Shown: positions 281-63,862 of the stretch, piece by piece | Layout: each line of letters starts with the position of its first letter | How positions within the stretch are numbered: the stretch's first letter is position 1 | NCBI RefSeq assembly: GCF_014204835.1 | Contig: NZ_JACHMD010000001.1 | Location: 3,038,001-3,102,000, forward strand | Reading direction: 5' to 3' | Length of the DNA: 64,000 nucleotides | Source of the DNA: Microbacterium marinum | Lineage (GTDB): Bacteria > Actinomycetota > Actinomycetes > Actinomycetales > Microbacteriaceae | Translations under genes and position numbers: made by a program | Notes under the pieces: generated by a model | The model's input: only the letters and a program-made list of their open reading frames with translations | Told to the model about the DNA's origin: nothing | The model's database searches: none

Positions 281-286
281 TAGCGT
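281..286 (+). promoter_or_regulatory. -10 box TAGCGT of a leaderless gene
   Basis: TAGCGT lies six bases before the ATG at 293, so transcription would start at or next to the start codon. There is no Shine-Dalgarno in between. Confidence 0.55.
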
Positions 287-292
287 GGAGCA

Positions 293-1156
293 ATGGCCCG
301 AACGCGCGACTCCGACGACGTCCCGGGCGTGCGACTCTCCGACGGCCGATCGGCGCGGATCATCCCCGGTCGCTTCGCCGGCGGGTGGGAACTCGTCGTC
401 GAGACGACACCGCAGTCGCACGTCGACCTCGACGACCCGTCCCACCTGCACTTCGAATACGTCGCCCGAATGGGCGCGGTCATCGATCAGCTGGGGCTCC
501 CCGGCCAGCCCCTCACGGCGGTGCACCTCGGCGCCGGCGCCATGACGCTCCCCCGCTACGTCGAGCACACCCGACCGGGCTCCCGCCAGCAGGTCATCGA
601 ACTCGAACAGGCGCTCGTCGACCTCGTCCGCGAACACCTCCCCCTCCCCCGCACAGGCCAGCTCCGCGTCCGCATCGGAGACGCCCGCGACGTCGCCGCC
701 CGCCTCCCCGCCGGCCTCACCGGCATCGTCGACCTCATCGTCTCCGACGTCTTCGCCGGAGCCCAGACACCCGCCCACATCACGACCGTCGAGTACTACC
801 GCATCCTCGCCGGGCTCCTCGCCCCGAGCGGCATTCTCCTCATCAACATCGCCGACGGCAACGGTCTCGCGTTCGCCCGCCGCCAGGTCGCCACCGTGCG
901 CTCCGTCCTCGAGCACGTCGTCGCCCTCGCCGAGGTGCGCACGCTCAAGAGCGGACGATTCGGCAACATCGTCATCGCTGCCTCCGCCTCACCACTCCCG
1001 ATGGAGTGGCTCCCCCGCCTCATGGCCGCCGGCCCCCACCCCGCCAAGGTCGCGCACGGCGACGAGCTCGACACCTTCGCGCGCGGCGCCCGCATCGTCA
1101 CCGACGCCGACGCGCAGCCGTCGCCCAAGCCCGCGGCATCCGTCTTCGAACGCTGA
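293..1156 (+). CDS. Spermidine synthase-like (PABS/SAM-binding) protein
   Basis: 287 residues with the Rossmann fold of spermidine synthases and class I methyltransferases. The glycine-rich motif VHLGAGAMTLPRYV is at about residues 77-90, an acidic VIELE strand follows near 99, GDARDV near 128, and DLIVSDVFAGAQTPAHIT near 146, where aminopropyltransferases carry the catalytic Asp. The N-terminal beta region is short. Actinobacterial homologues are annotated as spermidine synthase-like or 'fused MFS/spermidine synthase', but this one has no membrane part. Whether it transfers aminopropyl or methyl groups cannot be told from sequence. The start is fixed by the leaderless promoter just upstream. 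Confidence 0.75.
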   Translation: MARTRDSDDVPGVRLSDGRSARIIPGRFAGGWELVVETTPQSHVDLDDPSHLHFEYVARMGAVIDQLGLPGQPLTAVHLGAGAMTLPRYVEHTRPGSRQQVIELEQALVDLVREHLPLPRTGQLRVRIGDARDVAARLPAGLTGIVDLIVSDVFAGAQTPAHITTVEYYRILAGLLAPSGILLINIADGNGLAFARRQVATVRSVLEHVVALAEVRTLKSGRFGNIVIAASASPLPMEWLPRLMAAGPHPAKVAHGDELDTFARGARIVTDADAQPSPKPAASVFER

Positions 1157-1238
1157 GCGCGCGGCGCGCCCTTCGCCCCATCCGCCTCGCTCGGGCGACA
1201 CTGGACAGACACGTCGGGTGCGTTCGGGAGGAGTCGCC

Positions 1239-1766
1239 GTGAGCTACATCAAGGGATACGACCCGGAGACCCTTCGCGAGATCGTCGACCTCGACCAGTG
1301 CCGGGACCGCCTCGCCGAGCTCGGCGAGCAGCGCAGCCTCGCCGCCATGCTCGAGCGCGTCTGGCTGCTGAAGGTCCTCGACCGTCTCGACGACGCGCTG
1401 GTCGTCTCCGAGCAGTCCGTCCGTCTCGCGCGCATGGCCGGCACCCGCAAGGACCTCCTGCGCGCCCGCGTGCTCCACGCCACGATCCAGCAGTTCCGCG
1501 GCGCCTACGCCGCCGCCATCCACGAACTGAACATGTGCGTCGAAGAAGCAGAGGGCCAGGGCTGGGCGGCGCTCGCGGCCTTCGCGTGCCAGCACCGCGG
1601 CAAGACCTCGTACGACGCCGGCGACTACCCCTCGGCGCGAGCCGACTTCAAGAAGGCGCTGTTCCTCCGCCAAGAAGCGGGCGCCCCCGAAGAGCAGCTC
1701 GAATCGACCCTCCTCGCCATCGAGGCCGCCGACCGGCGACGCGCCGGCGCTTCGGTCGCCAGCTGA
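1239..1766 (+). CDS. TPR-like helical repeat protein
   Basis: 175 residues, almost entirely helical. Repeated A/L-rich helix pairs (for example around SYDAGDYPSARADFKKAL in the C-terminal half) resemble tetratricopeptide repeats, which usually mediate protein-protein contacts. No signal peptide or catalytic motif was seen. I chose the GTG at 1239 rather than the in-frame GTG at 1218, because GGGAGGAG at 1226-1233 is well placed only for the former. No function can be assigned. The gene sits between two leaderless genes on the same strand. Confidence 0.65.
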   Translation: MSYIKGYDPETLREIVDLDQCRDRLAELGEQRSLAAMLERVWLLKVLDRLDDALVVSEQSVRLARMAGTRKDLLRARVLHATIQQFRGAYAAAIHELNMCVEEAEGQGWAALAAFACQHRGKTSYDAGDYPSARADFKKALFLRQEAGAPEEQLESTLLAIEAADRRRAGASVAS

Positions 1767-1783
1767 GTGTCCCACCCCTCCTC

Positions 1784-1789
1784 TACCGT
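1784..1789 (+). promoter_or_regulatory. -10 box TACCGT of a leaderless gene
   Basis: TACCGT is followed by six bases and then the ATG at 1796. No ribosome binding site is present. Confidence 0.55.
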
Positions 1790-1795
1790 CGTCGC

Positions 1796-2284
1796 ATGAC
1801 CGACCCGACCGACGTCCGCCGCGAGGCGGAGGAGCTCCTGCGGACGCACCTCGACGCTTCGTGGTCGTTCGCCTTCGACAACGCCAAGCGCCGGGCCGGA
1901 GCCTGCGACTACCTGCGCAAGCGCATCACGCTGTCGCGATACCTCTCCGCCCGCTACGACGACGAGACGAACCGGCAGACGATCCTCCACGAGATCGCGC
2001 ACGCCCTCGCCGGCCCCGCCGCCGGGCACGGCGCGGACTGGAAGCGCATCGCCCGCAGCCTCGGCTACACCGGAGGGGTGACGCACCGCGGCGAGACCGC
2101 CACCGAGTTGGCGCCCTGGGTCGGCGTCTGCCCCGCCGGCCACATCGCCTACCGCCACCGGCGCGCGACCCGAGCGACGTCGTGCGCGATCTGCGCGCCG
2201 ACGTTCGACGAGCGTCATCTCATCAGCTGGCGTCGTCGCGAGATCAGCGCGGCGACACGGCGAGCGGCACTCGCTCCCCGCTGA
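1796..2284 (+). CDS. SprT-like zinc metallopeptidase-like protein
   Basis: 162 residues. The zincin motif HEIAHALAG is at residues 65-73, with a third histidine in GHGADW at about 78, the pattern of the SprT/Spartan family. C-terminal VCPAGH and SCAIC pairs could form a small zinc ribbon, as in SprT proteins. Eukaryotic Spartan cleaves DNA-protein crosslinks; the role of short bacterial versions is poorly known. The reading frame remains open for 166 codons upstream, but that part only mirrors the TPR gene in another frame. The ATG at 1796 is supported by the -10 box. Confidence 0.8.
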   Translation: MTDPTDVRREAEELLRTHLDASWSFAFDNAKRRAGACDYLRKRITLSRYLSARYDDETNRQTILHEIAHALAGPAAGHGADWKRIARSLGYTGGVTHRGETATELAPWVGVCPAGHIAYRHRRATRATSCAICAPTFDERHLISWRRREISAATRRAALAPR

Positions 2285-2290: not shown

Positions 2291-2926
2291 TCACGCGCGC
2301 GACCACACGCCATCCCGCAGCACCGGCACCGCATCGTCGGCGTCGATCGTCGCTGCCGCGATGACCTCATCGCGCTTGCCCTCGGCGAGCAGCTCCTGAC
2401 CCGAACCGCAGGCGGTCAACAGGTGCCGCACCGCTCCCCGCAGTCCGCGGAAGGCCTCGGATGCCGCGGCTGCCTCCGGCGACGAATGGTCGACGCCCCG
2501 CGCCTCGAGCGCCGCGAGTACCGCACCGGCGCCGAGCTGATCCTCCACCGCGAACCGCAGCTCGGCGCCGGGCTCGCGCCCCGACAGCTCGCCGGCGGCG
2601 ACGATGTTGACGCTCGTTCGGGCCCCGCGCGCGCTCTGCTCGACGAGCACCGCCGCCGCGACCGCCGCAGCGTTGCGGAGGGAGCCGAGCATCACCACGG
2701 CGCCCTGCTCCGCCGCCGCGGAGGCGACTGCGGCACCGTTCAGCGACACGGCGTGCGCGCTCTCGTCGTGCGGCACCGTCTCGCCGGCGGCGACGCGGGC
2801 GGACACCGTCGACGAGAAGCGCAGCACATCCACCACGACGACGACATCGGAAGGGCCGAGTCGCCGCAGGCCCGCGACGCCCCAGTCGAAACGCAGCTGG
2901 TACCGGGACTGGGTGAAGTCGGTCAT
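2291..2926 (-). CDS. comB: 2-phosphosulfolactate phosphatase family protein (ComB-like)
   Basis: 211 residues matching the ComB family: an N-terminal VVVVDVLRFSSTVSARV strand-helix, a central NGAAVASAAAEQGAVVMLGS segment, and VAAGE... VEDQLGAGAVLAAL in the second half. ComB hydrolyses 2-phosphosulfolactate in coenzyme M synthesis in methanogens. Actinobacterial homologues lack that pathway and their substrate is unknown. The ATG overlaps the TGA of the upstream GH3 gene (ATGA), so the two are translationally coupled and probably share the CebR-type operator. Confidence 0.75.
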   Translation of the reverse strand: MTDFTQSRYQLRFDWGVAGLRRLGPSDVVVVVDVLRFSSTVSARVAAGETVPHDESAHAVSLNGAAVASAAAEQGAVVMLGSLRNAAAVAAAVLVEQSARGARTSVNIVAAGELSGREPGAELRFAVEDQLGAGAVLAALEARGVDHSSPEAAAASEAFRGLRGAVRHLLTACGSGQELLAEGKRDEVIAAATIDADDAVPVLRDGVWSRA

Positions 2927-5385
2927 CCCTCCAGGGTACGAGCGGCGACGACCGGCTTCAGCGCGAGCGCCAGCCGCAGGACGTTTCCGGCGGTCCGCTG
3001 CAGCTCACCACGCGTGAGCCCGTCGTCCGCAGCCAGCGATTCCAGGATCGTGTCGTCGGCGTACGACTGGGGTCCCGCCTCGGTCTTCACGCCTCCGGGC
3101 ATGAGCACGTCCACCTGCGCCCGCACCCGGTACGCGTTGTCGCGAAGCGCCGGGAAGTCGGGGTCGACGGCATCCTCCATCCACCAGTCGGTGATGACGA
3201 CGCCCTCGTAGCCCCACTCGTCGCGCAGGACGGTCGTGACGAGGTCGTGGTGGTAGTGCGCCCAGACCCCGTTGATCTGGTTGTACGAGGTCATCAGCGT
3301 CTTCGGCTTCGCCTCGCGGATGCAGATCTCGAAACCGCGCAGGTAGATCTCCCGGAGGGCGCGCTCCGACACCCGCGAGTCGTTGCGGGTGCGGTTGGTC
3401 TCCTGGTTGTTCGCGGCGAAGTGCTTGGGGCAGGCCGACACCCCGACCGACTGCACGCCGCCCACGACGGCCGCGGCGATCGAGCCGGTGACCACCGGGT
3501 CTTCGCTGAAGTACTCGAAGTTGCGGCCGCACAGCGGATCGCGGTGGATGTTCATCCCCGGGCTCAGGAGCACGTCCGACCCCTTCCGGAGCATCTCCTC
3601 GCCGTGCAGCGCCGCCAGCTCGCGCACGAGATCGGTGTTCCAGGTCGAGGCGAGCGCGGTGCCCGAGGGCAGGAGCGATGCGTACGCCGACAGCCGAAGC
3701 CCGCTCGGTCCGTCCGTCGTGGTGATCGGCGGCACACCCTTGGCGCGCAGCGACTCCGACACCCCGCCGAGCACTCCCGCATTGCCCGGAGCGCCGAGCG
3801 GACTGTGCATCGTCACGTCCCCGCGCGCGAGCAGCGCGAGCTCGTCGTCACTCAGCTGGGCGATGAACTCGTCGAGGGATGCCGCGCCCGACCCGACCGC
3901 GTCGAGCCCGATCCCCCGGTCGCCGGTCGGAGTGATCTCCCGCGGGAGACCTGCCGTGATGCGATCACGGCGCAACGCGGTCGCGGTGGGTACCGGCTCA
4001 CGCGCGATCACCGCCGAGCCGTCGACCTCACGGCCGAGCGTGAGACGTTCGAAGGGGACGACCGGCGCGGCGACCTCTGTCAGCCGCCGGACGACGTGCA
4101 AATCCGCGACGTGGAAGGCCGCCACCTGCGCCGCCGAGCGGACGTCGGTGCCGACGAACACCGGGTACTCACCCGGCTCGAGCACCCAGCAGCTGCGATG
4201 CCCGGTCGCGCCGCCGTCGTCGTAGGAGGCGAGGTGGTCGCGACGGACCGTCAGCTCGAGCCGCTCACGCTCGCCCGGCTGAAGGAGCGCCGTCTTGGCG
4301 AAGGCAACGAGCGCGCGTGCCGGCTTGCCGAGCGCGCCGTCGGGGCCACCCGCGTAGACCTGGACGACTTCCTTGCCCGCCCGCGACCCGGTGTTCGTCA
4401 CCTCGACCGTCAGCCGGAGCGACGCGGCATCCTTCTCCTGATCGACCACCGTCACGGCGAAGGTCGTGTAACCGAGGCCGTAGCCGAAGGGGAAGAGGAC
4501 GCGCTCCGGGGCGAACGTCTCGAAGTAGCGGTATCCGACGAAGACGTCCTCGACGTACTCGTTCGCGTCCGGGTGCCCGAAGTTCGGCGCACTCGGATAG
4601 TCGGTGTAGCGCCGCGCGATCGTGTCGGTCAGCTTCCCGCTGGGCGCGAGCTCTCCGGCGAGGACACCGGCCACGGCGCGGGCGCCCTCCATCCCGCCCT
4701 GCCACGCGTACAGCACGGCGCCGATGCGCCGGTCGTAGTCGGCCAGCCACGACAGGTCCATGACGTTGCCGGCGTCGAGCACGACGACGGTGTGCGCGAA
4801 TGCGTCGGTGACGGCATCCAGCAGGGCACGCTCGTCGGCGGTCAGGTAGTAGCTGCCGGGTTCCAGCACGCTCTCCCGCGCCTCTCCGGCCGCGCGACCG
4901 ATCGCGACGACGGCGGTGTCGGCGCGCAGGGCCGCCGCCGCGACGTCGCCTGCGGAGATCGGCATTTCGGGGAAGTGGTGCGGCCACTGGCCCCACGTTG
5001 CGGTGAAGGTGGGCCGGTGGGTCGCCGCCCACGACGCGTACCGGTCGGCGAGTTCGCCGTCGACCTGGATGCCGGCGTCGCGCAGGCCCGCGAGCAGGTT
5101 CCAGATGTAGGGGACCTTCACGTCTCCACCCGAGCCGTACCCGACGGCGAACCAGTCGATCTGCACACGGCCGAAGACGGCTACCCGGTGGCCCTCGAGC
5201 GGCAGCGTGCCGTCGTTGCGGAGGAGTACGACACCCTCGGCGGCGGCCTGACGCGCGGTCCGCGCGAGCGCAGGGTCGAGGGTCGGATCCGTGTCGAGGA
5301 GGAGGGTCGAGATCTGTGCGACCGATTCGACGGGGGCGAGGGTGTGCGAGCGGTCGCCCGATTCGATGGCGGGGTCGAGCGGCAT
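2923..5385 (-). CDS. GH3 beta-glucosidase with permuted domain order
   Basis: 820-residue cytoplasmic glycoside hydrolase of family 3; no signal peptide. The domains run in the reverse of the usual order. The alpha/beta sandwich comes first (GVVLLRNDGTLPL at about residue 50), then a fibronectin-III-like domain (about 300-400), then the TIM barrel (about 430-800) with KHFAANN and the nucleophile Asp733 in VITDWWM. This order is known from Butyrivibrio and Ruminococcus beta-glucosidases. The open frame extends 141 codons upstream over the divergent gene; I chose the ATG at 5385 because AAGGA precedes it and the operator lies just outside. It likely hydrolyses cellobiose or other beta-glucosides taken up as oligosaccharides. 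Confidence 0.85.
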   Translation of the reverse strand: MPLDPAIESGDRSHTLAPVESVAQISTLLLDTDPTLDPALARTARQAAAEGVVLLRNDGTLPLEGHRVAVFGRVQIDWFAVGYGSGGDVKVPYIWNLLAGLRDAGIQVDGELADRYASWAATHRPTFTATWGQWPHHFPEMPISAGDVAAAALRADTAVVAIGRAAGEARESVLEPGSYYLTADERALLDAVTDAFAHTVVVLDAGNVMDLSWLADYDRRIGAVLYAWQGGMEGARAVAGVLAGELAPSGKLTDTIARRYTDYPSAPNFGHPDANEYVEDVFVGYRYFETFAPERVLFPFGYGLGYTTFAVTVVDQEKDAASLRLTVEVTNTGSRAGKEVVQVYAGGPDGALGKPARALVAFAKTALLQPGERERLELTVRRDHLASYDDGGATGHRSCWVLEPGEYPVFVGTDVRSAAQVAAFHVADLHVVRRLTEVAAPVVPFERLTLGREVDGSAVIAREPVPTATALRRDRITAGLPREITPTGDRGIGLDAVGSGAASLDEFIAQLSDDELALLARGDVTMHSPLGAPGNAGVLGGVSESLRAKGVPPITTTDGPSGLRLSAYASLLPSGTALASTWNTDLVRELAALHGEEMLRKGSDVLLSPGMNIHRDPLCGRNFEYFSEDPVVTGSIAAAVVGGVQSVGVSACPKHFAANNQETNRTRNDSRVSERALREIYLRGFEICIREAKPKTLMTSYNQINGVWAHYHHDLVTTVLRDEWGYEGVVITDWWMEDAVDPDFPALRDNAYRVRAQVDVLMPGGVKTEAGPQSYADDTILESLAADDGLTRGELQRTAGNVLRLALALKPVVAARTLEG

Positions 5386-7527: not shown

Positions 7528-8285
7528 GCTGCGGCCTCCGCCGCGAGCATGTGGGCGGAGATCTGCTCGGCGGTCTGCCGGGGCTTGTCCGCGACGATCC
7601 GCCCGTCACCGAGGAACAGCACGCGGTCGGCGTACGAGGCGGCGACGGGATCGTGGGTGACCATCGCGATCGACTGGCCGTGGTCGCGGCTGGCGTTCGC
7701 CATCAGCGCGAGCACCTCTCGGCCCGAGCGCGAGTCGAGGTTCCCCGTCGGCTCATCGGCGAACAGCAGGTCGGGCGACGTGGCGAGGGCTCGCGCGATG
7801 GCCACGCGTTGCTGCTGGCCGCCCGAGAGCTGATGCGGACGGTGGCGCAGACGGGCGGTCAGCCCGAGGGTCTCCACGAGACCGTCGATGCGCGAACGCT
7901 CCAGCGCGCTGGGCCGGCGCCCGTCGAGGTCGAACGGCAGCATGATGTTGCCGATCGCGTCGAGGGTGGGCACGAGGTTGAACGCCTGGAACACGAAGCC
8001 CACACGGCGGCGGCGCAGGATGGTCAGGTCGATGTCAGAGAGGCCGGTGATGTCGGTGTCTCCGATCCAGACGCGCCCCGCGGTCGGGTTGTCGAGGCCC
8101 GCCATGATGTGCATGAGCGTGGACTTGCCCGATCCGGAGGGGCCCATGATGGCGGTGAACTCGCCGCGACGGATTCCGACGGTGACGTCGTCGAGGGCGC
8201 GGACGGTCGACTCGCCCGCGCCGAAGGTCTTCGTGAGGTTCTGGACGCGGGCGGCGAGGCCCATGTCGGAGGTGGTGATCTGCAT
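7524..8285 (-). CDS. ABC exporter ATPase (MacB/LolD type)
   Basis: 253 residues. Walker A GPSGSGKST, Q-loop FVFQAFNLVP, signature LSGGQQQRVAIARAL, Walker B LLFADEPTGNLDS and H-loop MVTHD are all intact. The FNLVPTLDAIGNIMLP region is typical of ATPases paired with FtsX-like permeases. The frame extends upstream to 8348, but I chose the ATG at 8285 because TAGCGT lies seven bases before it, a leaderless arrangement. It drives the permease encoded immediately downstream with a 4-bp overlap. Confidence 0.87.
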   Translation of the reverse strand: MQITTSDMGLAARVQNLTKTFGAGESTVRALDDVTVGIRRGEFTAIMGPSGSGKSTLMHIMAGLDNPTAGRVWIGDTDITGLSDIDLTILRRRRVGFVFQAFNLVPTLDAIGNIMLPFDLDGRRPSALERSRIDGLVETLGLTARLRHRPHQLSGGQQQRVAIARALATSPDLLFADEPTGNLDSRSGREVLALMANASRDHGQSIAMVTHDPVAASYADRVLFLGDGRIVADKPRQTAEQISAHMLAAEAAA

Positions 8286-8292
8286 GTCTTCG

Positions 8293-8298
8293 ACGCTA
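8293..8298 (-). promoter_or_regulatory. -10 box TAGCGT of the ABC exporter operon
   Basis: On the minus strand TAGCGT precedes the ATG at 8285 by seven bases, which favours this start over the longer frame. Confidence 0.5.
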
Positions 8299-9014: not shown

Positions 9015-10207
9015 GAGAACTCTCGCGGGGAATCAGTGGCGGGGGCGCTCAGCCCATCGTCCGCACGAACGGGAAGGGTGGCGGACACGACGAACGCGGA
9101 GCCGTCGGGACCGGCATCGAGGCGGCCGCCGATCAGCTGCGCGCGCTCGCGCATGCCGATGAGGCCGTGCCCGGGCACCCGGCGCTCGGCGCCGGGTTCG
9201 GATGCCGCCTCGTTGCGCACCCGCAGATCGACGCGATCGCCCCACCAGGCGAGCGATACGTCGACGGGTCCACCACTGCCGTGGCGCAGGGCGTTGGTCA
9301 GTGCCTCCTGGAGGATGCGGTAGACCGCGAGCTCCACGGACGCGGGCACCTCCCCGCGCGGTGCGGGATCGACGTCGACACGCAGTTCGACCCCGGCCGC
9401 GCGCACCTGCGCGTACAGCTGTTCGAGATCGGCGAGAGTCGGCTGCGGGCCGTCGGACTGGGAGTGACGCAGCTGGGTCAGCAGCAGGCGGACATCCGAC
9501 AGCGCCGACCGCGCCGTCGTCGAGATCGTGCCGAGCGCCGCCGACTGGGCGGCGGGATCGGCCGCGGCGGCGTAGCGAGCGCCGTCGGACTGCGCGATGA
9601 TCACGGCGAGCGAGTGGGCGACGATGTCGTGCATGTCCCGCGCGATCCGGGTGCGCTCCTGTTCCGCCGCTGTCTCGGCTTCGGCGCGCACCTGTGCGGC
9701 TCGCGTGGCGCGGCCACGGAGGACGTTGCGCACGAGGGCGCCGCTGGTCCACGCGAGCCCCAGCGCGAACAGCGCCGCGATGAGAATGGCGACGGCGGAG
9801 GGGAGGTCGGACCACGAGAACTGGCCGATGAGACCCCAGCGGAACAGGTAGATCGTGATCGCCGCCGAGCCGACGCCGACCGAGGCGAGGCCCGCCCAGA
9901 ACACGACGCGCGAGCCGTACGCCGCCGTGACGTACAGCACCGCGAAGATCGCGATGTCGACGAAGCCGGGGTTCCGCTCCGCCGTCATCTGCAGCAGCGC
10001 GCCAGTCCACGCCACGCCGAGCGACAGCCCCGGCGACAGTCGGCGAACCGCCACCGCCGCGCCCATGATGAGCACGAGGACGACGGCGACCCACTCCGTC
10101 CCCGGGGCAGCCGACGTGACGAGTTCGGCCGGCAGCGCGACGAGCGCGAAGCCGAGCGCGACCAGGACGTCGAAGACCACCTGGAGGGGGCGGAGCTGGC
10201 GGAACAC
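9011..10207 (-). CDS. Sensor histidine kinase, HisKA_3 (NarX/DesK type)
   Basis: 398 residues. Four to six hydrophobic segments fill residues 10-165, with little extracellular material, so this is an intramembrane-sensing kinase. The phospho-acceptor His is in ERTRIARDMHDIVAHSLAV (about residue 196). The HATPase_c domain follows, with a LQEALTNALRHG N-box near 300 and GHGLIGMRER. Such kinases often sense cell-envelope damage or membrane state. GTG start, preceded six bases upstream by TAACGT, so the transcript is probably leaderless. It is co-transcribed with the response regulator. Confidence 0.9.
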   Translation of the reverse strand: MFRQLRPLQVVFDVLVALGFALVALPAELVTSAAPGTEWVAVVLVLIMGAAVAVRRLSPGLSLGVAWTGALLQMTAERNPGFVDIAIFAVLYVTAAYGSRVVFWAGLASVGVGSAAITIYLFRWGLIGQFSWSDLPSAVAILIAALFALGLAWTSGALVRNVLRGRATRAAQVRAEAETAAEQERTRIARDMHDIVAHSLAVIIAQSDGARYAAAADPAAQSAALGTISTTARSALSDVRLLLTQLRHSQSDGPQPTLADLEQLYAQVRAAGVELRVDVDPAPRGEVPASVELAVYRILQEALTNALRHGSGGPVDVSLAWWGDRVDLRVRNEAASEPGAERRVPGHGLIGMRERAQLIGGRLDAGPDGSAFVVSATLPVRADDGLSAPATDSPREFS

Positions 10208-10213
10208 CCTTCG

Positions 10214-10219
10214 ACGTTA
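10214..10219 (-). promoter_or_regulatory. -10 box TAACGT of the two-component operon
   Basis: TAACGT on the minus strand, six bases before the GTG at 10207. Confidence 0.55.
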
Positions 10220-10264: not shown

Positions 10265-11206
10265 TCAGCGCCCGGGCAGGTAGACGCGCAGCCCCTGGTC
10301 GATCGCCGAGACGCGCAGGCGGAACCCGTCCTGTCCGACCTGCTCGAGCTCGCCGTCGTGCACGTAGATGTCAGGGGCGCTCCCGGCGCGGACCTCGAGG
10401 TCGATGTCTGCCGACACGATCCGTTCGAGATCGGATGCCGGCGGCATGAGGCGGACCGCGCGCAGCACCGAGATCGAGCGTCGGCCGAACGCGAGCGATG
10501 CCACCGCCCGCATGCGCGTTCCGCGAGCGTGGTGGATGCGGACGTCGACGACGGCGTCGTCGAGCGTCGCTCGCTGCATCATGGCGATGCGCTCGGGATC
10601 GTTGCGCCCCACACCGATGAACACCGACCAGACCGAGGCTCGTCGTCCGCGTCGAGCGATGCCGACGGCGTGTGCGTCGTGCAGGGCCCGCCACGCGGCC
10701 ACGGCACCGCCCCACCATTTGCCGAGACTCGAGCGGCGCTCGCGTTCTACCAGGAGCTCGGGGTATGCGCCGAGGGAGACGGCGTTGAGCACAGTGACGG
10801 GATCTCGGTCGTCGATGCGCACCTCGGCGACGACGACGCTGCGGACCGCGCCGTGCTCGTACGCGTCGAGTCCGGCGTCGACGTCTTCGATGCCGGCCGA
10901 GCGCGCGAAGTGATTGAAGGTTCCGTTCGGCAGCACGAGGAGGGTGAGGTCGTGCCGGCGCGCGAGATGAGCGGCGCGGGAGACCGAGCCGTCCCCGCCG
11001 AGGATGGCCAGCACACGCGGCGCGTCTGACCCCGCGACCGCCTTCGCCACCACGTCGTCGAGCGTCTCGTTCTCGCCCAGCTCGTGCACCGTCGCGCCCG
11101 GCAGCCGGCGCCGGACGTCGGGTACCCGGTCAGGGCGCCCGAGCGAGGCGCCCGAACGCGAGTTCGCGATCACGAGGACCTCAGCGCCGATCGGGTTCTC
11201 GCTCAT
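10265..11206 (-). CDS. Diacylglycerol/sphingosine kinase-like protein
   Basis: 313 residues of the DAGK catalytic fold. NSRSGA near residue 15, the nucleotide-binding ILGGDGSVSRAAH at about 67-79 and LPNGTFNHFAR near 92 match the lipid kinase family. The C-terminal half has the beta-sandwich with VRLMPPASDLERIVSADIDLEV and VHDGELEQVG, corresponding to the family's D-G-E element. Bacterial members phosphorylate diacylglycerol or related lipids at the membrane. The substrate here is not determinable. Confidence 0.82.
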   Translation of the reverse strand: MSENPIGAEVLVIANSRSGASLGRPDRVPDVRRRLPGATVHELGENETLDDVVAKAVAGSDAPRVLAILGGDGSVSRAAHLARRHDLTLLVLPNGTFNHFARSAGIEDVDAGLDAYEHGAVRSVVVAEVRIDDRDPVTVLNAVSLGAYPELLVERERRSSLGKWWGGAVAAWRALHDAHAVGIARRGRRASVWSVFIGVGRNDPERIAMMQRATLDDAVVDVRIHHARGTRMRAVASLAFGRRSISVLRAVRLMPPASDLERIVSADIDLEVRAGSAPDIYVHDGELEQVGQDGFRLRVSAIDQGLRVYLPGR

Positions 11207-11212
11207 CCCGTC

Positions 11213-11218
11213 ACGCTA
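11213..11218 (-). promoter_or_regulatory. -10 box TAGCGT of a leaderless gene
   Basis: TAGCGT on the minus strand, six bases before the ATG at 11206. Confidence 0.55.
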
Positions 11219-11275: not shown

Positions 11276-11755
11276 TCAGGCAGGACCGAGCGGGCGATGC
11301 TCGAAGAACGACTGCAGCACGACCGTCGTGCGCGTGTTCACCGACGCCGCGGAACGGATGTCGCGGATGAGGCGCTCGAGATCGCGTGGCGTCGCGACGC
11401 GCACGAACAGCATGTATGCGGCATCCCCCGCGATGGAATGGCACGCCTCGATCTCATCGAGGTGGGCGATCAGCTCGGGTGCGTTGTCGGGCTGACCGGG
11501 ATCCAACGGCGTGATCTCGACGAACGCGGCGAGCGGCTTGCCGACCGTCTCGGGGTCGATGATCGCGCGGTACCCGGTGATCGCCCCCTTCGCCTCAAGG
11601 CGACGCACCCGGGCCTGGGTGGCCGACACCGACAGCTTCGAGACGGCGGAGAGGTCGGCGAGGGTGGCCCGCGCGTTCACGGCGAGCTCCCGGAGGATCG
11701 CGGCATCCGCGTCGTCGCCGAATGCGCGGGCGGATGTCTGGTCGTCGGATGCCAC
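11276..11755 (-). CDS. Lrp/AsnC-family transcriptional regulator
   Basis: 159 residues. The N-terminal winged helix (about 15-75) includes ILRELAVNARATLADLSAVS and ATQARVRRLEAKGAITGY. The C-terminal RAM/AsnC ligand-binding domain (about 85-150) has VEITPLD, EIEACHSIAGDAAYMLFVRV and a TTVVLQSFFEHRPL end. It binds an amino acid or similar effector and forms dimers or octamers. It is divergent from the DUF6421 gene and shares a 120-bp intergenic region with it, so it probably controls that gene and itself. GTG start with TAACGT six bases upstream. Confidence 0.9.
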   Translation of the reverse strand: MASDDQTSARAFGDDADAAILRELAVNARATLADLSAVSKLSVSATQARVRRLEAKGAITGYRAIIDPETVGKPLAAFVEITPLDPGQPDNAPELIAHLDEIEACHSIAGDAAYMLFVRVATPRDLERLIRDIRSAASVNTRTTVVLQSFFEHRPLGPA

Positions 11756-11761
11756 GGTGCG

Positions 11762-11767
11762 ACGTTA
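11762..11767 (-). promoter_or_regulatory. -10 box TAACGT of the Lrp/AsnC gene
   Basis: TAACGT on the minus strand, six bases before the GTG at 11755. The remainder of the gap to 11862 is more AT-rich than its surroundings (TAAATCTT, AGAATC) and is the likely regulator-binding region. Confidence 0.5.
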
Positions 11768-13292: not shown

Positions 13293-14723
13293 TCAGTCGC
13301 CCGCCACTCCTCCGGCGGCGTGCCGGGAGGAGGGTGGGGCGTGCGCTGGCGTGCCGTCCTCGGCTGCGACCGTGGACGGTGCGGTGGCGTACTCGGCGGA
13401 GAGGATCCGGTAGGAGCGCGTGAGGAAGGCGGCCAGGGCCGCCGCCACCATCACGAGCCCGCCGACCAGGAAGATGAGTGCGATCCCCCGCACCTCGCCC
13501 TCGCCGAGCAGCCATGACCACGCGCGCTCCCCCTCGGCCGTCCGCAGATACGGGATGATCCAGAACTCAGCGATGGGCGCGATCGCGAACGACGTGATCG
13601 GGCCGGTGGAGACTTCCAGCGCCGTCGCGGCGCCGAAGACACGACCCTGACGTTCGAACGGGACGACGCGCTGAATGACGGTCTGCTCTGCCGCCTCGAT
13701 GATCGGCACGAGCGTCATGTACGCCCAGATGCCGAGGGCGTACAGCCACCACCACTCCCGGAGGGTGAACACCGCTCCCAGCAGGCCCATGCCCGCCACC
13801 GCCAGCAAGAGTGTCCTGATCGGGTTGCGACCAAGCCCCTTCGCGGCGACGATGCCCCCGCCGATGAGGAAGCCGGTGGCGGTCACCGCCAAGACGATGC
13901 CCCAGATCTCGACCGCGAAGAGCTCGAGCCCGTACGGGTCCATGAGGGCCATGTACAGACCGCCCACGAGGTTGTTGAAGGTGGAGAAGAGGATCAGGGC
14001 GAACAGGCCGGGCACGGCGCGGATCGCCGCGGCGGCGCCGCGCACGTCGAGGATCTTCGACCCCGGGTCGGGGACGGGGCGCTCCTCGGGGATGCGCAGC
14101 ATCAGGAGGTGCACGAGCGGCAGTGCGGTCAGACCGAGTGCGATCACCAGGGTCCAGCCCATACCGACGATGCCCACGGCCAGGCCCGACAGCGCGCTCG
14201 TGACGATGAAGGCGATGCCTTGGACCGTCCCGACGAGGCCGTTCGCGTTCGCGTGGCGTTCGGTGGGCACCAGGAGGGTGACGGTCGTCGAGAGGGCGAT
14301 GTTGCGGAGGTTCTCGACGACCGCGCCGGTGAGGATGACGCCGGCGAAGAGCCAGAACCACGGACGCCCCAGGTCGAGGATCGCGGATTCGGGCTGCGCG
14401 AGGTAGATGGCCCCGGCAGCGAGGAACGCGGCCAGGGTGAACACCGCCGAGAACACCATGACGGAGTGTTTGCGGAAGCGGTCGACGAGGGTGCCGAACA
14501 CCATCCCGAACACGGCGAGGAGCAGCATGTACGCGCCGCCGATGATGCCCGTCGCGAGCACCGATTTCGTCTCGAGATAGACCCAGAAGGTCAGCGCGAA
14601 CCAGAGGAAGCTCGTCGTGACGTTCGCCACCGCGGTGTTCACCAGCACGTGGAGGAACGTCCGCATTCCGTTCGAGGGAACGGTGCGGGCCGGAGTGGGA
14701 GAACGCGACTCAGCGTCGGTCAT
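13293..14723 (-). CDS. MFS transporter
   Basis: 476 residues with about 12 hydrophobic helices and the MFS loop GTLVDRFRKHSV between helices 2 and 3 (about residue 75). The ERHANANGLVGTVQGIAF segment resembles drug/efflux MFS members of the MFS_3 type. The last ~30 residues are a Pro/Ala-rich cytoplasmic tail. The frame is open far upstream, but I chose the ATG at 14723, which has TACCCT seven bases upstream; an ATG ten codons earlier is a weaker alternative. Substrate unknown. It converges with the DUF6421 gene, four bases apart. Confidence 0.85.
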   Translation of the reverse strand: MTDAESRSPTPARTVPSNGMRTFLHVLVNTAVANVTTSFLWFALTFWVYLETKSVLATGIIGGAYMLLLAVFGMVFGTLVDRFRKHSVMVFSAVFTLAAFLAAGAIYLAQPESAILDLGRPWFWLFAGVILTGAVVENLRNIALSTTVTLLVPTERHANANGLVGTVQGIAFIVTSALSGLAVGIVGMGWTLVIALGLTALPLVHLLMLRIPEERPVPDPGSKILDVRGAAAAIRAVPGLFALILFSTFNNLVGGLYMALMDPYGLELFAVEIWGIVLAVTATGFLIGGGIVAAKGLGRNPIRTLLLAVAGMGLLGAVFTLREWWWLYALGIWAYMTLVPIIEAAEQTVIQRVVPFERQGRVFGAATALEVSTGPITSFAIAPIAEFWIIPYLRTAEGERAWSWLLGEGEVRGIALIFLVGGLVMVAAALAAFLTRSYRILSAEYATAPSTVAAEDGTPAHAPPSSRHAAGGVAGD

Positions 14724-14730
14724 GGGTCCG

Positions 14731-14736
14731 AGGGTA
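14731..14736 (-). promoter_or_regulatory. -10 box TACCCT of the MFS gene
   Basis: TACCCT on the minus strand, seven bases before the ATG at 14723. Confidence 0.45.
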
Positions 14737-14831: not shown

Positions 14832-14837
14832 TAGGCT
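14832..14837 (+). promoter_or_regulatory. -10 box TAGGCT of the threonine aldolase gene
   Basis: TAGGCT, six bases before the GTG at 14844; no ribosome binding site lies between. Confidence 0.55.
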
Positions 14838-14843
14838 GGGACG

Positions 14844-15920
14844 GTGACGACGATCCACGACCGCACGGTCCGTTCCTTCGCCAGCGACAACTACTCCGGG
14901 GTCCACCCCGACGTGCTCGCGGCCATCGCTGCCGCCAACGACGGCCACCAGATCGCCTACGGCGAAGACGTGTACACCGCACGGCTGCAGGAGGTCTTCG
15001 CGCACCACTTCGGCGAAGACGCGCAGGCGTTCCCGGTCTTCAACGGCACCGGGGCGAACGTCACCGGCCTGCAGTCGATGCTGCCCCGGTGGGGCGCCGT
15101 GGTCGCGGCATCCACCGCCCACATCAACGTCGACGAGGGTGGCGCACCCGAGAAGGTCGCGGGCATCAAGATTCTGAACGTCCCGACTGGCGACGGCAAG
15201 CTCACCCCCGAGCTCGTCGACCTGGAAGCGTGGGGTTGGGGCGACGAGCACCGCGCGCAGCCGCTCGTCGTGTCGATCACGCAGTCCACCGAACTCGGCA
15301 CCCTTTACACCCCCGACGAGATCCGGGCGTTAGCCGACCACGCTCACTCCCGCGGCATGCGCCTGCACCTCGACGGCGCGCGCCTGTCCAACGCCGCGGC
15401 CGCCCTCGACCTGCCGATCCGCGCCTTCACCAAGGATGCCGGTGTCGACCTCGTCAGCGCCGGCGGCACGAAGAACGGCGCGCTCGCGGCCGAGGCGATC
15501 GTCGTCCTCGACCCCGCGGCATCCCAGGGCCTCCCCTATCTCCGCAAGCTCAACATGCAGCTGTCGTCGAAGATGCGCTTCGTCTCGGCGCAGCTGATCG
15601 CGCTGTACGAGGGCGACCTGTACCTGCGCAACGCGCGCCACGCCAACGCCATGGCGGCGCGTCTGCGGGCGGCGGTCGAGGCGGGGATCGCCGACGGATC
15701 GATCACCGGCGTGGCCTTCAGCCAGCCGACGCAGGCGAACGGTGTCTTCGCGACACTCCCCGACGGTGTCGCCGATGCGCTCCGCGAGACGTTCCGTTTC
15801 TACGACTGGGATGCCGCGAAGAACGAGGTCCGCTGGATGTGCTCGTTCGACACCACCGAATCCGACGTCGACGCGTTCATCGCGGAACTCGCCCGGCTGA
15901 CCGGCGGTGCGCGCGGCTGA
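14844..15920 (+). CDS. ltaE: Low-specificity L-threonine aldolase
   Basis: 358 residues of the PLP fold-type I beta-eliminating lyase family. FASDNYSGVHP at the N-terminus, FNGTGANVTGLQSM near residue 66, the cofactor-contacting HLDGARLSNAA near 174 and the Schiff-base lysine in GGTKNGAL near 210 are diagnostic. The enzyme splits L-threonine or L-allo-threonine to glycine and acetaldehyde in the cytoplasm. Length is normal. It stands alone between divergent and convergent genes. The GTG start is supported by the leaderless promoter. Confidence 0.87.
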   Translation: MTTIHDRTVRSFASDNYSGVHPDVLAAIAAANDGHQIAYGEDVYTARLQEVFAHHFGEDAQAFPVFNGTGANVTGLQSMLPRWGAVVAASTAHINVDEGGAPEKVAGIKILNVPTGDGKLTPELVDLEAWGWGDEHRAQPLVVSITQSTELGTLYTPDEIRALADHAHSRGMRLHLDGARLSNAAAALDLPIRAFTKDAGVDLVSAGGTKNGALAAEAIVVLDPAASQGLPYLRKLNMQLSSKMRFVSAQLIALYEGDLYLRNARHANAMAARLRAAVEAGIADGSITGVAFSQPTQANGVFATLPDGVADALRETFRFYDWDAAKNEVRWMCSFDTTESDVDAFIAELARLTGGARG

Positions 15921-16592: not shown

Positions 16593-16598
16593 GCCTCA

Positions 16599-16604
16599 TG
16601 TATA
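16599..16604 (-). promoter_or_regulatory. -10 box TATACA of the NUDIX gene
   Basis: TATACA on the minus strand, six bases before the ATG at 16592; among the best -10 matches in the window. Confidence 0.6.
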
Positions 16605-18426: not shown

Positions 18427-18432
18427 GTCGTC

Positions 18433-18438
18433 ACCGTA
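18433..18438 (-). promoter_or_regulatory. -10 box TACGGT of the PucR gene
   Basis: TACGGT on the minus strand, six bases before the GTG at 18426. Confidence 0.5.
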
Positions 18439-32078: not shown

Positions 32079-32084
32079 CGACCC

Positions 32085-42846: not shown

Positions 42847-42852
42847 ACGGTA
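42847..42852 (-). promoter_or_regulatory. -10 box TACCGT of the alarmone synthetase gene
   Basis: TACCGT on the minus strand, seven bases before the ATG at 42839, between that gene and the LacI stop codon. Confidence 0.45.
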
Positions 42853-43876: not shown

Positions 43877-43883
43877 GGACCGA

Positions 43884-43889
43884 AGCGTA
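43884..43889 (-). promoter_or_regulatory. -10 box TACGCT of the LacI gene
   Basis: TACGCT on the minus strand, seven bases before the ATG at 43876. The -35 position would fall inside the 43900-43919 operator, giving autorepression. Confidence 0.45.
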
Positions 43890-61244: not shown

Positions 61245-61250
61245 TATGGT
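61245..61250 (+). promoter_or_regulatory. -10 box TATGGT of the ROK gene
   Basis: TATGGT, six bases before the GTG at 61257; no ribosome binding site. Confidence 0.6.
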
Positions 61251-61256
61251 GATCAC

Positions 61257-62426
61257 GTGAGCGAGCAGGGTCGAACGATCGAGTCCGTGCGGCGAGCGAA
61301 CCTGGGCGGCATCCTCGGCATCGTGCACCGCGAGGGACCGCAGTCGCGTGCCGCGCTGACCGAAGCGACCGGCCTCAACCGGTCGACGATCGCCGACTTG
61401 GTGGGCACGCTCGTGACCTTCGGCCTCGTCGAGGAGCGCGCACCGGATCCGTCGCACCGCGTCGGCCGCCCCTCCCCCATGGTCGCCGTGCATCCGCGGG
61501 TCGTCGCGATCGCGGTGAACCCCGAAGTGGACGCCCTCGAGATCGCCGCCGTCGGCCTCGACCGCGAGATCCGCGCTGTCGTCGTCCTGCCGCAGGACGC
61601 CGTGCTGAGCCCGGATGACGCCGCTCGCCTCGTCGCCGAGCAGGTCGACACCTGGCGTGCCAGCGAACTGGCCGACGCCCGCATTCTCGGCGTCGGACTC
61701 GCCGTGCCGGGCCTGGTCCGCAGCGACGACGGACTCGTCCGCGACGCTCCGCACCTCGGCTGGGTCGACACGCCGCTCCGCGACATCGTCGCACAGGCGA
61801 CCGGACTCCCCGTCGTCGTCGGCAACGACGCGACCCTCGGCACGCTCGCTGAGCACCTGTTCGGCGCCGCGCGCGGCATCGATCAGGTCGTCTACCTCAA
61901 CGGCGGTGCGAGCGGTATCGGCGGCGGCATCATCGTGAACGGGATGCCGGTGCTCGGCGCCGGCGGCTACGCCGGCGAGTTCGGCCAGAACCGTCCCGGC
62001 ATCGCCACCCTCGCCGATCGCCGTGCCCGCGACGGCGTCCTCGAGGACGAGGTGAGCCGCGCCCGACTCCTCGCCGTCGTCGGGCTCACCCGGGCGGACG
62101 ACCGAGAGCTGGCATCCGCTCTGACATCAGCGGCGGGCACGCCGTCGGTCGCCGGCGAGATCGATCGGCAACGGCGCATCATCGCGACCGCGCTGTCGAA
62201 CGCGGTGAACGTGCTCAACCCGTCAGCCATCGTGCTGGGCGGCTTCCTTTCGGTGCTCGCGGAGCTCGACAACGACGCGCTGGTTCAGGCCGTGAGAGCT
62301 CAGGCGATGCCCGCGTGCGGCGAGGACCTGCGCATTCTCCCTGCGGAGCTCGCCGAGCACCGACTGCTCATCGGTGCCGCCGAGTCGGTCTTCGCCGAGG
62401 TGCTCGCGAACCCGTCGCCGGCCTGA
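61257..62426 (+). CDS. ROK-family repressor (XylR-like)
   Basis: 389 residues. The N-terminal winged helix (about 10-75) has NLGGILGIVHREGPQSRAAL and TGLNRSTIADLVGTLV. The ROK sugar-binding domain (about 80-380) has GVGLAVPGLV, VVVGNDATLGTLAEHLFGAA and GGGIIVNGMPVLGAGGYAGEFG. The usual zinc-binding CxCGxxGCxE is absent: the segment after GEFG has no cysteine. This places it with the XylR-type regulators rather than sugar kinases. Likely target is the xylA operon. The GTG is fixed by TATGGT; a longer frame would start within the terminator. Confidence 0.87.
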   Translation: MSEQGRTIESVRRANLGGILGIVHREGPQSRAALTEATGLNRSTIADLVGTLVTFGLVEERAPDPSHRVGRPSPMVAVHPRVVAIAVNPEVDALEIAAVGLDREIRAVVVLPQDAVLSPDDAARLVAEQVDTWRASELADARILGVGLAVPGLVRSDDGLVRDAPHLGWVDTPLRDIVAQATGLPVVVGNDATLGTLAEHLFGAARGIDQVVYLNGGASGIGGGIIVNGMPVLGAGGYAGEFGQNRPGIATLADRRARDGVLEDEVSRARLLAVVGLTRADDRELASALTSAAGTPSVAGEIDRQRRIIATALSNAVNVLNPSAIVLGGFLSVLAELDNDALVQAVRAQAMPACGEDLRILPAELAEHRLLIGAAESVFAEVLANPSPA

Positions 62427-62442
62427 CGGAGTCTCGCTCGGA

Positions 62443-63138
62443 TCAGCGCGGTCCGGGACGGACCGTGAGGTCGCTGATCACCGCATCACGCGGCAGGTCG
62501 AGGGCGGTGAGGGTGGCCGTGACGACGGATGCCGGGTCGATCCAGGCGCTGGGGTCGTAGGCGGCGCCTTCCTGCTCGTGCACTTTCGCCTGCATCGGGG
62601 TCGCAGTGCGGCCTGGGTAGATCGTCGTGACGCGCACGCCGTGCGGCGCCTCTTCGCCGCGCAGCGCATCGGCAAGCGCCTTCAACCCGTGCTTGGATGC
62701 CGCGTACGCCGCCCACTCGGGATGCGCGGTGAGCCCGGCGCCGGAGTTCACGAAGACGATCTGGCCGCGCGCCGCACGAACGCGGAGCAGCAGGAGCCGG
62801 GTGAGCTCGGCGGGCGCGACGAGGTTGACGGCGAGCTGCTCGTTCCACGACGTGACGGGCAGGTCGGCGACGTGCCCGAGGTCGACGATGCCGGCGGCGT
62901 GCACGATCGCGTCGATGTGCTCGGGCAGGTCGGCTGCCTCGAGCGCCGCTGCGAGCCGCTCAGGCTGCGCGAGGTCGGCGATCACGGCGCGGGATCCCGG
63001 CAGCGCGGCGGTGAGCTCCTCGGCGCGAGCGGCGCTGCGGGCGGTGACGATGAGTCGGTCGCCGCGGGCGGCGAGGCGCTCTGCGAGGAGGCGGCCGATG
63101 CCCGAGCCGGCACCGGTGACGACGATGGTGTGCGGCAT
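62443..63138 (-). CDS. SDR family oxidoreductase
   Basis: 231 residues. The cofactor motif is TGAGSGIGRLLA (about 8-19), the family's NAG reads HAAGIVDLG near 82, and the catalytic Ser/Tyr/Lys lie in VNSGAG and YAASKHGLKA near 145-150. NADP-type preference is suggested by TARS after strand 2. Short classical SDR; substrate unknown. GGGAGG lies almost directly before the ATG. If the neighbouring SDR ended at its normal stop there would be a 47-base gap. Confidence 0.87.
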   Translation of the reverse strand: MPHTIVVTGAGSGIGRLLAERLAARGDRLIVTARSAARAEELTAALPGSRAVIADLAQPERLAAALEAADLPEHIDAIVHAAGIVDLGHVADLPVTSWNEQLAVNLVAPAELTRLLLLRVRAARGQIVFVNSGAGLTAHPEWAAYAASKHGLKALADALRGEEAPHGVRVTTIYPGRTATPMQAKVHEQEGAAYDPSAWIDPASVVTATLTALDLPRDAVISDLTVRPGPR

Positions 63139-63850
63139 CCTCCCATCCTCCCATCCACCACGTGCCCGTGACTTCGGGCTGGCCCTCAGAACGCGCGGAG
63201 AAGCCGCCGTCGGTGTGAAGGAGCTGACCGCTGATCCAGCGCCCTTCGTCAGAGAGTAAGAAAGCGGTGATGCCCGCGATGTCCTTGGGTGTGCCGGCTC
63301 TGCCCAGTGGGTGGTGCGCCGTCAGCGCTGTTCGCGTCTCGTCGTCCATCCAGCCGGTATCGATCGGACCCGGGTTCACGACATTGGCCGAAATGCCCTT
63401 TGCGCCGAGCTCACGCGCAGCGGATATGACGATCCGGTCCAGTGCGCCCTTGGATGCGCCGTACGGGAGGTTGCCGGTTGTGTGATCGCTGGTGAATGCG
63501 ACGATCGCTCCACCGCCCTCGTCGACTTCGCGAGCGAACGCGGCGATGAGCAGCAGGGTTGCCCGGGCATTGACGGCGACGTGCATGTCGAAGCTCGCGG
63601 CGGTGGTGTCGAGAATGCCGGATTCCACGTCGTGAGCATGGCTGAGGACGAGGGCAGACAGCGGACCCCGCTCGCGCGTGATCCGTTCGATGAGCTCGGT
63701 CGGGGCCGACGGGTCTGACAGATCGCACGGGTAGTCGCCGCTGCCCAGGTCGCTGATCACAACCTCCCACCCGTCCGCCACCAAGCGGGGAACGATGCCG
63801 GCGGCGATGCTGTCGGCACGCGCAGCTCCGGTCACGAGTGCGAGAGCCAT
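62960..63850 (-). CDS. SDR family oxidoreductase with out-of-frame 3' extension
   Basis: As sequenced, 296 residues. The first ~222 are a complete classical SDR: TGAARADSIAAGIV, catalytic YGASKGALDR near 145, NVVNPGPIDTGWM and the closing GQLLHTDGGFSAR. The remaining ~75 residues (from about SEGQ) are Arg/His-rich and simply read the downstream SDR gene in another frame, overlapping it by 179 bases. A TGA at 63188-63186 lies one base out of frame just after GGFSAR, so a one-base deletion near 63190-63200 has probably removed the true stop. The ATG at 63850 has TACCCT six bases upstream. Confidence 0.8.
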   Translation of the reverse strand: MALALVTGAARADSIAAGIVPRLVADGWEVVISDLGSGDYPCDLSDPSAPTELIERITRERGPLSALVLSHAHDVESGILDTTAASFDMHVAVNARATLLLIAAFAREVDEGGGAIVAFTSDHTTGNLPYGASKGALDRIVISAARELGAKGISANVVNPGPIDTGWMDDETRTALTAHHPLGRAGTPKDIAGITAFLLSDEGRWISGQLLHTDGGFSARSEGQPEVTGTWWMGGWEDAAHHRRHRCRLGHRPPPRRAPRRPRRPTHRHRPQRRSRRGAHRRAAGIPRRDRRPRAA

Positions 63851-63856
63851 GGGTTG

Positions 63857-63862
63857 AGGGTA
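63857..63862 (-). promoter_or_regulatory. -10 box TACCCT of the SDR gene
   Basis: TACCCT on the minus strand, six bases before the ATG at 63850. Confidence 0.5.

Follow-up and report, generated by a model that had tools for sequence, protein, structure and literature searches.

The window, that is, the whole 64-kb stretch of Microbacterium marinum DNA analyzed here, contains at least 19 genes with a TAnnnT box 6 or 7 nt before the start codon, as an earlier note on this DNA had claimed. On the forward strand, with a spacing of 6 nt, they encode a 287-aa protein without an assigned family (281..295, TAGCGT before ATG; no Pfam match and no orthologue in the fetched loci), an SprT-like protein (1784..1798, TACCGT, ATG; box at 6 or 7 nt in 17/17 orthologues, the fraction being given in the same way below), a beta-eliminating lyase (14832..14846, TAGGCT, GTG; 35/72, with 36/72 at 8 or 9 nt only), a nuclease (SNase) homologue (30671..30685, TAGCAT, ATG; 5/6), a LysR substrate-binding-domain protein (31276..31290, TACGCT, ATG; 28/29), a class I glutamine amidotransferase (32073..32087, TAGAAT, ATG; 26/27, the other at 8 or 9 nt) and a ROK regulator (61245..61259, TATGGT, GTG; 1/1). 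On the reverse strand, the same spacing is found before genes for a 2-phosphosulpholactate phosphatase family protein (2924..2938, TACCCT, ATG; 17/17), a sensor histidine kinase (10205..10219, TAACGT, GTG; 26/28, plus one at 8 or 9 nt), a diacylglycerol kinase catalytic domain (11204..11218, TAGCGT, ATG; 19/19), an Lrp/AsnC regulator (11753..11767, TAACGT, GTG; 42/46, with 4/46 at 8 or 9 nt), a PucR regulator (18424..18438, TACGGT, GTG; 1/1), a YitT membrane protein (30129..30143, TAGGGT, GTG; only 8/23) and a short-chain dehydrogenase (63848..63862, TACCCT, ATG; 0/1). A spacing of 7 nt, always before ATG on the reverse strand, occurs in genes for an ABC transporter ATPase (8283..8298, TAGCGT), an MFS transporter (14721..14736, TACCCT), a TspO/MBR family protein (33638..33653, TACCGT), a RelA/SpoT-domain protein located 23 nt downstream of a LacI gene (42837..42852, TACCGT) and a LacI regulator (43874..43889, TACGCT).

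Among the 19 sites listed previously, 18 matched the pattern letter for letter, namely 13 of the 14 given at 6 nt and all five given at 7 nt. The exception was 16592- (16590..16604), a DUF4916/Nudix gene with TATACA 6 nt before ATG. On the other hand, 2926- (TACCCT-GGAGGG-ATG) was missing from that list and fits the pattern. When all 3587 ATG/GTG codons on both strands of the window were considered, TAnnnT was found before 14 of them at 6 nt and before seven at 7 nt, and the other 24 offsets (0 to 25) carried 21 in total. Two of the seven matches at 7 nt (33817- and 41562-) were not gene starts; we rejected them as additional leaderless small ORFs, because the ORFs are short and the number is close to that expected by chance at a single offset. 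It should be noted that the gene at 63850- was not kept by our coding-content caller, which kept an overlapping one at 62443-63138.

A genome-wide count of TAnnnT, set as a check beforehand, revealed enrichment at 6 and 7 nt relative to both other offsets and out-of-frame starts. The genome comprises 3.12 Mb, and the sample covered 27.7% of it, including 40 stretches spread round the genome beyond the window; genes were called by our own coding-content script instead of standard annotation, and for the main count the starts of 764 genes were called from coding content alone. The box was present before these starts 89 times at 6 nt and 20 times at 7 nt, against a background mean of 2.1 per offset at 11-25. 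Outside the window (715 genes) it occurred 77, 18, 11 and 8 times at 6, 7, 8 and 9 nt, respectively, with 0 to 6 at each remaining offset from 0 to 40, and no peak could be observed at 1239 out-of-frame ATG/GTG codons. In relatives (1094 genes from 80 loci, all copies of one region), the corresponding numbers were 148 at 6 nt, 44 at 7 nt and 29 at 8 nt. Two variants were also raised at 6 nt, CAnnnT (28, background 6.8) and GAnnnT (20, background 8.3); AAnnnT was not (3 vs 2.4 in the 764 genes), nor was any base change at -11 or -7 in the same genes. Thus, A at -11 and T at -7 are required, which are the two bases read by sigma, and -12 tolerates C or G. The summed excesses correspond to about 153 of the 764 genes (∼20%) fitting the leaderless pattern. 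No -35 signal was detected in 109 box genes, since matches to TTGACA were flat at spacers of 8-29 from the box, and no clear downstream signal was found at the first base of codon 2 (A in 53/109 box genes vs 288/655 others).

The earlier statement that these genes lack a convincing Shine-Dalgarno sequence is broadly correct. Duplex energies of 20 starts (the 19 listed and 2926-) ranged from +0.7 to -7.7 kcal/mol, and only three reached -7.0 or lower: 18426- (-7.4), 30131- (-7.0) and 61257 (-7.7); 11% of 1070 random gene-internal positions did likewise. In the set whose starts rest on coding content only, energies of -6.5 or lower were obtained for 9% of the 109 box genes and 32% of the 655 other genes. 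The median was -3.1 for both 170 box genes and the 1070 gene-internal sites; for 602 other genes it was -6.4, a value inflated because this energy had helped to choose their starts. Shine-Dalgarno pairing of box genes is therefore near background.

The bases preceding the start codon varied with spacing. At 7 nt, position -1 was a pyrimidine in 30/36 of our own genes and 67/81 of those in relatives (baseline 54-58%), and at 8 nt both -1 and -2 were pyrimidines in 11/15 of our own (baseline 29%), with binomial p-values of 0.0002 and 0.0005 for the own 7-nt and 8-nt classes, respectively. A pyrimidine pair likewise precedes GTG in the beta-eliminating lyase orthologues that have 8-nt spacing. 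At 6 nt no shift is required, and pyrimidines at -1 were near baseline (65/110 own and 91/168 in relatives). Our own 9-nt candidates departed from this rule.

Further analysis of orthologues showed that a box lay near a start in 330 of 394 rows at 6 or 7 nt, and in 373 when 8-9 nt were counted, compared with 10 of 442 rows for control genes. Any in-frame ATG/GTG near the aligned start could carry the box, and the controls were equally free. As controls we took the other 30 called genes in the window except 29416- and 42132-; 24 of these 28 had orthologues, and six genes supplied the majority of the 442 rows. We discarded, without tallying them, rows whose identity was below 50%, whose coverage was low or whose upstream sequence was too short, as well as those that lacked an ATG/GTG candidate or had identical flanks. 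The exceptions to conservation were YitT (8/23) and 63850 (0/1), and 293 had no orthologues. The amidotransferase 32085 had the box in 19/19 best whole-genome matches, a set overlapping its 27 orthologues; the best-scoring loci among the 59 genomes searched comprised 19 relatives for this gene and 29 for the RelA-like gene. Because the loci were best-scoring matches, close relatives are over-represented, and as all relatives belong to one genus, neither conservation nor their initiator counts are independent observations.

The need for A-11 and T-7, the pyrimidines at 7- and 8-nt spacing and the near-background Shine-Dalgarno pairing point to a -10 element and to transcription beginning at the start codon itself, as the earlier note had proposed; position and conservation, observed directly in the DNA like these other features, also support it, and we consider this reading very probably correct. 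From these observations we infer the RNA 5' end, the sigma factor and the binding of ribosomes to a 5'-terminal start codon. The box would serve the housekeeping sigma factor as its -10 element, RNA polymerase would start at the first base of the start codon to give an mRNA without a leader, and ribosomes would begin at the 5'-terminal AUG/GUG. If polymerase picks a purine 7-9 bases past the box, pyrimidines would be kept before the codon at spacings of 7 or 8 so that the first usable purine is the A or G of ATG/GTG. Roughly 20% of genes, mainly the first in transcription units, would be built in this way.

An alternative is that the box is a promoter element with transcription beginning 1-5 nt upstream of the codon, which would give a very short leader. 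The 9-nt class (8/715 genes outside the window) would suit it, especially as the base 3 nt ahead of the codon is a purine in 9 of our 11 own 9-nt candidates, as expected for a 3-nt leader; however, the 7- and 8-nt classes avoid purines exactly where a short leader would begin, and we regard this alternative as improbable. It is far less probable still that the box is the stop codon of an upstream gene (TAG/TAA) involved in translational coupling: although 65% of 110 boxes at 6 nt begin with TAG or TAA (third place 58% G and 7% A), about one-third begin with TAC or TAT, T is needed at the sixth place, CAnnnT and GAnnnT are enriched too, and 72 of 146 box genes (6 or 7 nt) have their upstream neighbour on the other strand. 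Hardly any weight can be given to chance or reader selection in GC-rich sequence, since, even though the window is denser in box genes than the rest of the sample (18/49 vs 128/723, Fisher p 0.002, post-hoc), the same peak is present in the 40 stretches round the rest of the genome, where its loss was looked for and not seen, and in the 80 loci of relatives (copies of one region, not independent).

With regard to operons, the suggestion that internal genes rely on Shine-Dalgarno sequences held as a tendency. The ratio of first to internal genes was 88:17 for box genes and 382:247 for others (odds ratio 3.3), 17 of 105 box genes having an upstream gene on the same strand no more than 40 nt away; transcription units were judged by strand and 40-nt distance only, and 30 of the 764 genes, having no upstream neighbour in their stretch, were excluded. 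When Pfam families were tallied for 109 box genes and for 109 non-box genes in promoter-proximal positions, the suggestion that regulators are leaderless found no support genome-wide. Among the 25 families listed for each set (25/185 and 25/150), LacI, TetR and response-regulator families (two each) appeared only in the non-box set, ROK (two) only in the box set and histidine-kinase ATPase (two) in both, counts too small to argue against a modest regulator bias. The boxed genes of the window do include several regulators (Lrp, PucR, LacI, ROK and histidine kinase); its LacI gene at 43876 is boxed and that at 55662 is not.

The leaderless pattern is real, conserved and ordinary for the phylum, and is already well known in this bacterial group. 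In 86 of 89 Actinobacteria genomes, TA-led genes make up about 20% of the total, with TAnnnT about 10 bp upstream of the start codon and three middle bases uninformative in high-GC groups, and operon-distal genes have been argued to need Shine-Dalgarno sequences (Zheng et al., 2011; PMC3160421). Our data share this placement and proportion, the uninformative middle bases and, as a tendency, the operon-distal reliance. Leifsonia and Clavibacter are absent from the main text of that study, and the spacing-dependent pyrimidine rule found here does not appear in the available part of it. In Mycobacterium tuberculosis, a TANNNT -10 without a -35 motif was reported, with starts at a purine having C at -1 and T at +2, leaderless transcripts for one in four genes that have a primary start, and growth functions depleted among them (Cortes et al., 2013; PMC3898074). 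A 5'-terminal ATG/GTG has been reported to be both necessary and sufficient for leaderless initiation in M. smegmatis and M. tuberculosis, and genes leaderless in one species were frequently so in the other (Shell et al., 2015; PMC4633059). Those studies were based on measured transcript ends and on ribosome profiling and reporters, respectively, whereas our evidence comes from sequence alone. Judged by titles and abstract openings, none of the open-access papers listed for leaderless genes and Microbacterium maps transcripts of this genus; the same literature yielded nothing on leaderless transcription starts in Microbacteriaceae, only an archaeal transcriptome and a synthetic-biology review for Clavibacter leaderless starts, and only Cupriavidus work for leaderless mRNA with GeneMarkS-2. 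With the general phenomenon established, the surprise is small. Nevertheless, our results suggest that start prediction based on Shine-Dalgarno sequences only could err for about one-fifth of the genes of a Microbacterium, and the spacing/pyrimidine rule may serve as a test for leaderless starts where RNA data are absent.

For the DUF4916 gene at 16592- (TATACA-TGAGGC-ATG, without T at -7), 78 of the 80 nearest loci carried TATACA, 72 of them with a spacing of 6 nt to the start, and 30 of 50 wider loci had TAnnnT or [CG]AnnnT boxes. This gene is probably leaderless with a variant box, and the family appears to retain the distance between box and start while the box loses its T at -7. Another class-wide set of 30 loci (no candidate start in 16, no box in 14) was superseded by the 50-locus reading, and DUF4916 N-termini apparently differ in length class-wide. 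A second, DUF4916-like box class (GGTAnnn[ACG]) was sought genome-wide in our own sample and rejected (three at 6 nt, 0-4 at other offsets).

The box also helps to fix the start codons of about 20 genes in the window, five of them ambiguous. The choices made by the box are backed by an orthologue box at 8285 (17/17; preferred to 8348), 14723 (37/38), 33640 (19/20, the other at 8 or 9 nt), 42839 (29/29 best-scoring relatives) and 43876 (3/3). The exact start position agreed for 42839 in 17/29 and, at an identity cut-off of 45%, for 8285 (16/16), but at this cut-off N-termini vary for 14723 (offset 0 in 6/37). Start positions also differ among orthologues of Lrp (11755-), yet a box lies at 6-9 nt in 46/46, as though the box shifts along when the protein N-terminus shifts. 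Whether in this genus the start codon moves during evolution together with the -10 box and the initiator pyrimidines, as a single unit, seems to us evenly balanced; if so, the transcription start would be predictable to the base. Finally, 41533- and 55662 can apparently differ between species, with no leader in one and a short Shine-Dalgarno leader in another, and genes that seem to switch in this way within one genus would provide a direct test bed for the gain or loss of leaders.

The genome is a single contig of 3,124,335 bp, and we sampled 27.7% of it (864 kb), comprising the window (bases 3038001-3102000) and 40 scattered 20-kb stretches. Genes were called on codon content alone, blind to upstream signal, which gave 786 genes, 764 of them with sufficient upstream sequence (49 in the window and 715 outside). 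Before the 715 starts outside the window, the box (TAnnnT) lay 6 nt from the start codon in 77 cases, 7 nt in 18, 8 nt in 11 and 9 nt in 8, and elsewhere between 0 and 40 nt each offset held 0 to 6 boxes. No TAnnnT peak was observed before 1239 wrong-frame ATG/GTG codons of the same regions. The positional enrichment that the earlier note had proposed as a check is present beyond the window, with offset and frame, not shuffled sequence, as controls.

The note had listed 19 window genes with the box 6 or 7 nt before ATG/GTG and considered the box a -10 element with transcription starting on the start codon. Letter-by-letter reading matched 18 of the 19; the exception, 16592- (genes are named by start-codon position, a trailing minus marking the minus strand), has TATACA. 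A further start with a box, 2926-, had been overlooked. Of all 3587 ATG/GTG on both window strands, 14 had TAnnnT at 6 nt and 7 had it at 7 nt; the remaining 24 offsets together gave 21 occurrences. Box genes were denser in the window (18/49) than elsewhere in the sample (128/723; p 0.002, post hoc), and their share reached 33-42% in the five densest 20-kb stretches outside it.

Among single-position variants at 6 nt, CAnnnT (28 vs a background of 6.8) and GAnnnT (20 vs 8.3) were enriched, and AAnnnT was not (3 vs 2.4). Any change of the second-place A or the sixth-place T, the bases read by the sigma factor in the -10 element, abolished the peak. Summed over box variants, the excesses corresponded to ~153 of 764 genes (20%). 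At its 3' end the 16S gene carries the usual GGATCACCTCCTTTCT, the exact position of that end being assumed here. With coding-only starts, 9% of the 109 box genes had a Shine-Dalgarno pairing energy of -6.5 or lower, compared with 32% of the other 655; the median energies (-3.1 vs -6.4) differed more, a contrast that is inflated because the non-box starts were there chosen partly by the same energy. Three box genes, 18426-, 30131- and 61257, had energies of -7.0 to -7.7, a level reached by 11% of random gene-internal sites.

The bases between box and codon bear on where the RNA starts. At 7-nt spacing, a pyrimidine directly preceded the start codon in 30/36 cases in this genome and 67/81 in relatives (baseline 54-58%), whereas at 6 nt its frequency was close to baseline (65/110 and 91/168, respectively). 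At 8 nt, both preceding bases were pyrimidines in 11/15 own cases (baseline 29%) and in 32/37 cases in relatives, apparently mostly from one gene, the beta-eliminating lyase (14844). The preference reported for mycobacterial polymerase is a purine start (+1) flanked by C at -1 and T at +2 (PMC3898074), and C at -1 with a pyrimidine at +2 is also reported in PMC4633059. Given these preferences, pyrimidines before the codon would push the RNA 5' end onto the A/G of ATG/GTG. The 9-nt class breaks this rule (pyrimidine at -3 in 2/11) and might be a small class with 3-nt leaders.

Among relatives, almost all of them congeners, the box was well conserved: it lay at 6/7 nt in 330 of 394 orthologues of boxed genes, or 373 including 8/9 nt, compared with 10/442 for 28 other window genes under an identical search. 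It was kept in all orthologues of SprT (17/17), 2926- (17/17), the ABC gene (8285-; 17/17), DAGK (19/19), the RelA-like gene (29/29) and LacI (43876-; 3/3), and in nearly all of those of MFS (37/38), LysR-like (28/29), GATase (26/27), TspO (19/20), histidine kinase (26/28), Lrp (42/46) and SNase (5/6). Conservation was weak for YitT (8/23) and barely testable for SDR (0/1), PucR (1/1) and ROK (1/1), and 293 had no orthologue among the loci compared. The Lrp start varied between species and the box shifted along with it; in the beta-eliminating lyase, 36/72 orthologues had 8/9-nt spacing, mostly with pyrimidines preceding GTG. Three of the 10 control positives were a distant in-frame codon of 16614, and the other seven came from two genes. 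One, 41533- (isoamylase/GlgX-like), has a Shine-Dalgarno-like site in this genome, probably with a short leader; 3/6 orthologues carry a box at the start, 6 nt before GTG in congeners L236 and L241 (TAGGGT, TAGTGT) and 7 nt in L237. The other, the LacI-family regulator 55662 (plus strand), has a weak Shine-Dalgarno-like start (energy -5.7), and the box lies 6 nt before ATG in 4/4 orthologues found.

The variant box of the DUF4916/Nudix gene 16592- (GGTATACA-like, A at -7; 16590-16604, minus strand) was compared with loci L043-L122 and L173-L222 of related genomes. Of the 80 nearest loci, 78 share TATACA and 72 have it 6 nt from the start, but it is not genus-wide: five other same-genus genomes gave one TATACA, one TAGCGT and three with neither. 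In the wider comparison, in which 50 loci were read out of 76 places listed, 20 had TAnnnT at 6/7 nt (two families showing TATGAT and TACGAT), 10 had [CG]AnnnT (including CAGAAT in two sister genera), one had TATACA and 19 had no box. A few [CG]AnnnT cases (GAGGAT, for example) may instead be Shine-Dalgarno sites, and several boxless loci had GGTAGAA-like letters at the box place, as judged by eye. These comparisons point to 16592- as a probable leaderless gene whose box is a variant. No second genome-wide class of such boxes was seen in our genome sample.

The earlier note had also associated Shine-Dalgarno sites with operon-internal genes and leaderless starts with regulators. The former was borne out as a tendency (first-in-unit to internal, 88:17 for box genes vs 382:247 for others); for the latter, family tallies, with small counts, showed no regulator excess among box genes. 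Zheng et al. 2011 (PMC3160421) describe the same signal, at ~20% of genes in 86/89 Actinobacteria genomes, and argue that Shine-Dalgarno is necessary for operon-distal genes. In mycobacteria, Cortes 2013 (PMC3898074) and Shell 2015 (PMC4633059) used transcript mapping and ribosome profiling to show leaderless genes. No -35 motif was visible upstream of our boxes, as is likewise stated for M. tuberculosis in PMC3898074. Searches of an open-access library turned up no Microbacterium transcript mapping. The boxed starts described here are a sound, well-conserved case of an already known phenomenon.

Some additional features were observed. Upstream of the RelA/SpoT-domain gene 42839- (42863-42879, minus strand), a TCnCAG block spans 27-22 nt before the box; its CAG was invariant in 29/29 orthologues, and a CTCGTAG-like block follows it; the region overlaps the LacI gene end in the window, and the TCnCAG block is possibly a regulator site. 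Just upstream of the box of the LacI gene 43876- lies a AACGTTTTCGAAAAGGTTTT stretch (about 43899-43918, minus strand), which we take to resemble a LacI-type operator, and autoregulation through this putative operator is possible. Finally, 62443-63138 and 62960-63850 (both minus strand) are plausible genes that overlap by ~180 bp, and one start or gene of this pair may be wrong.
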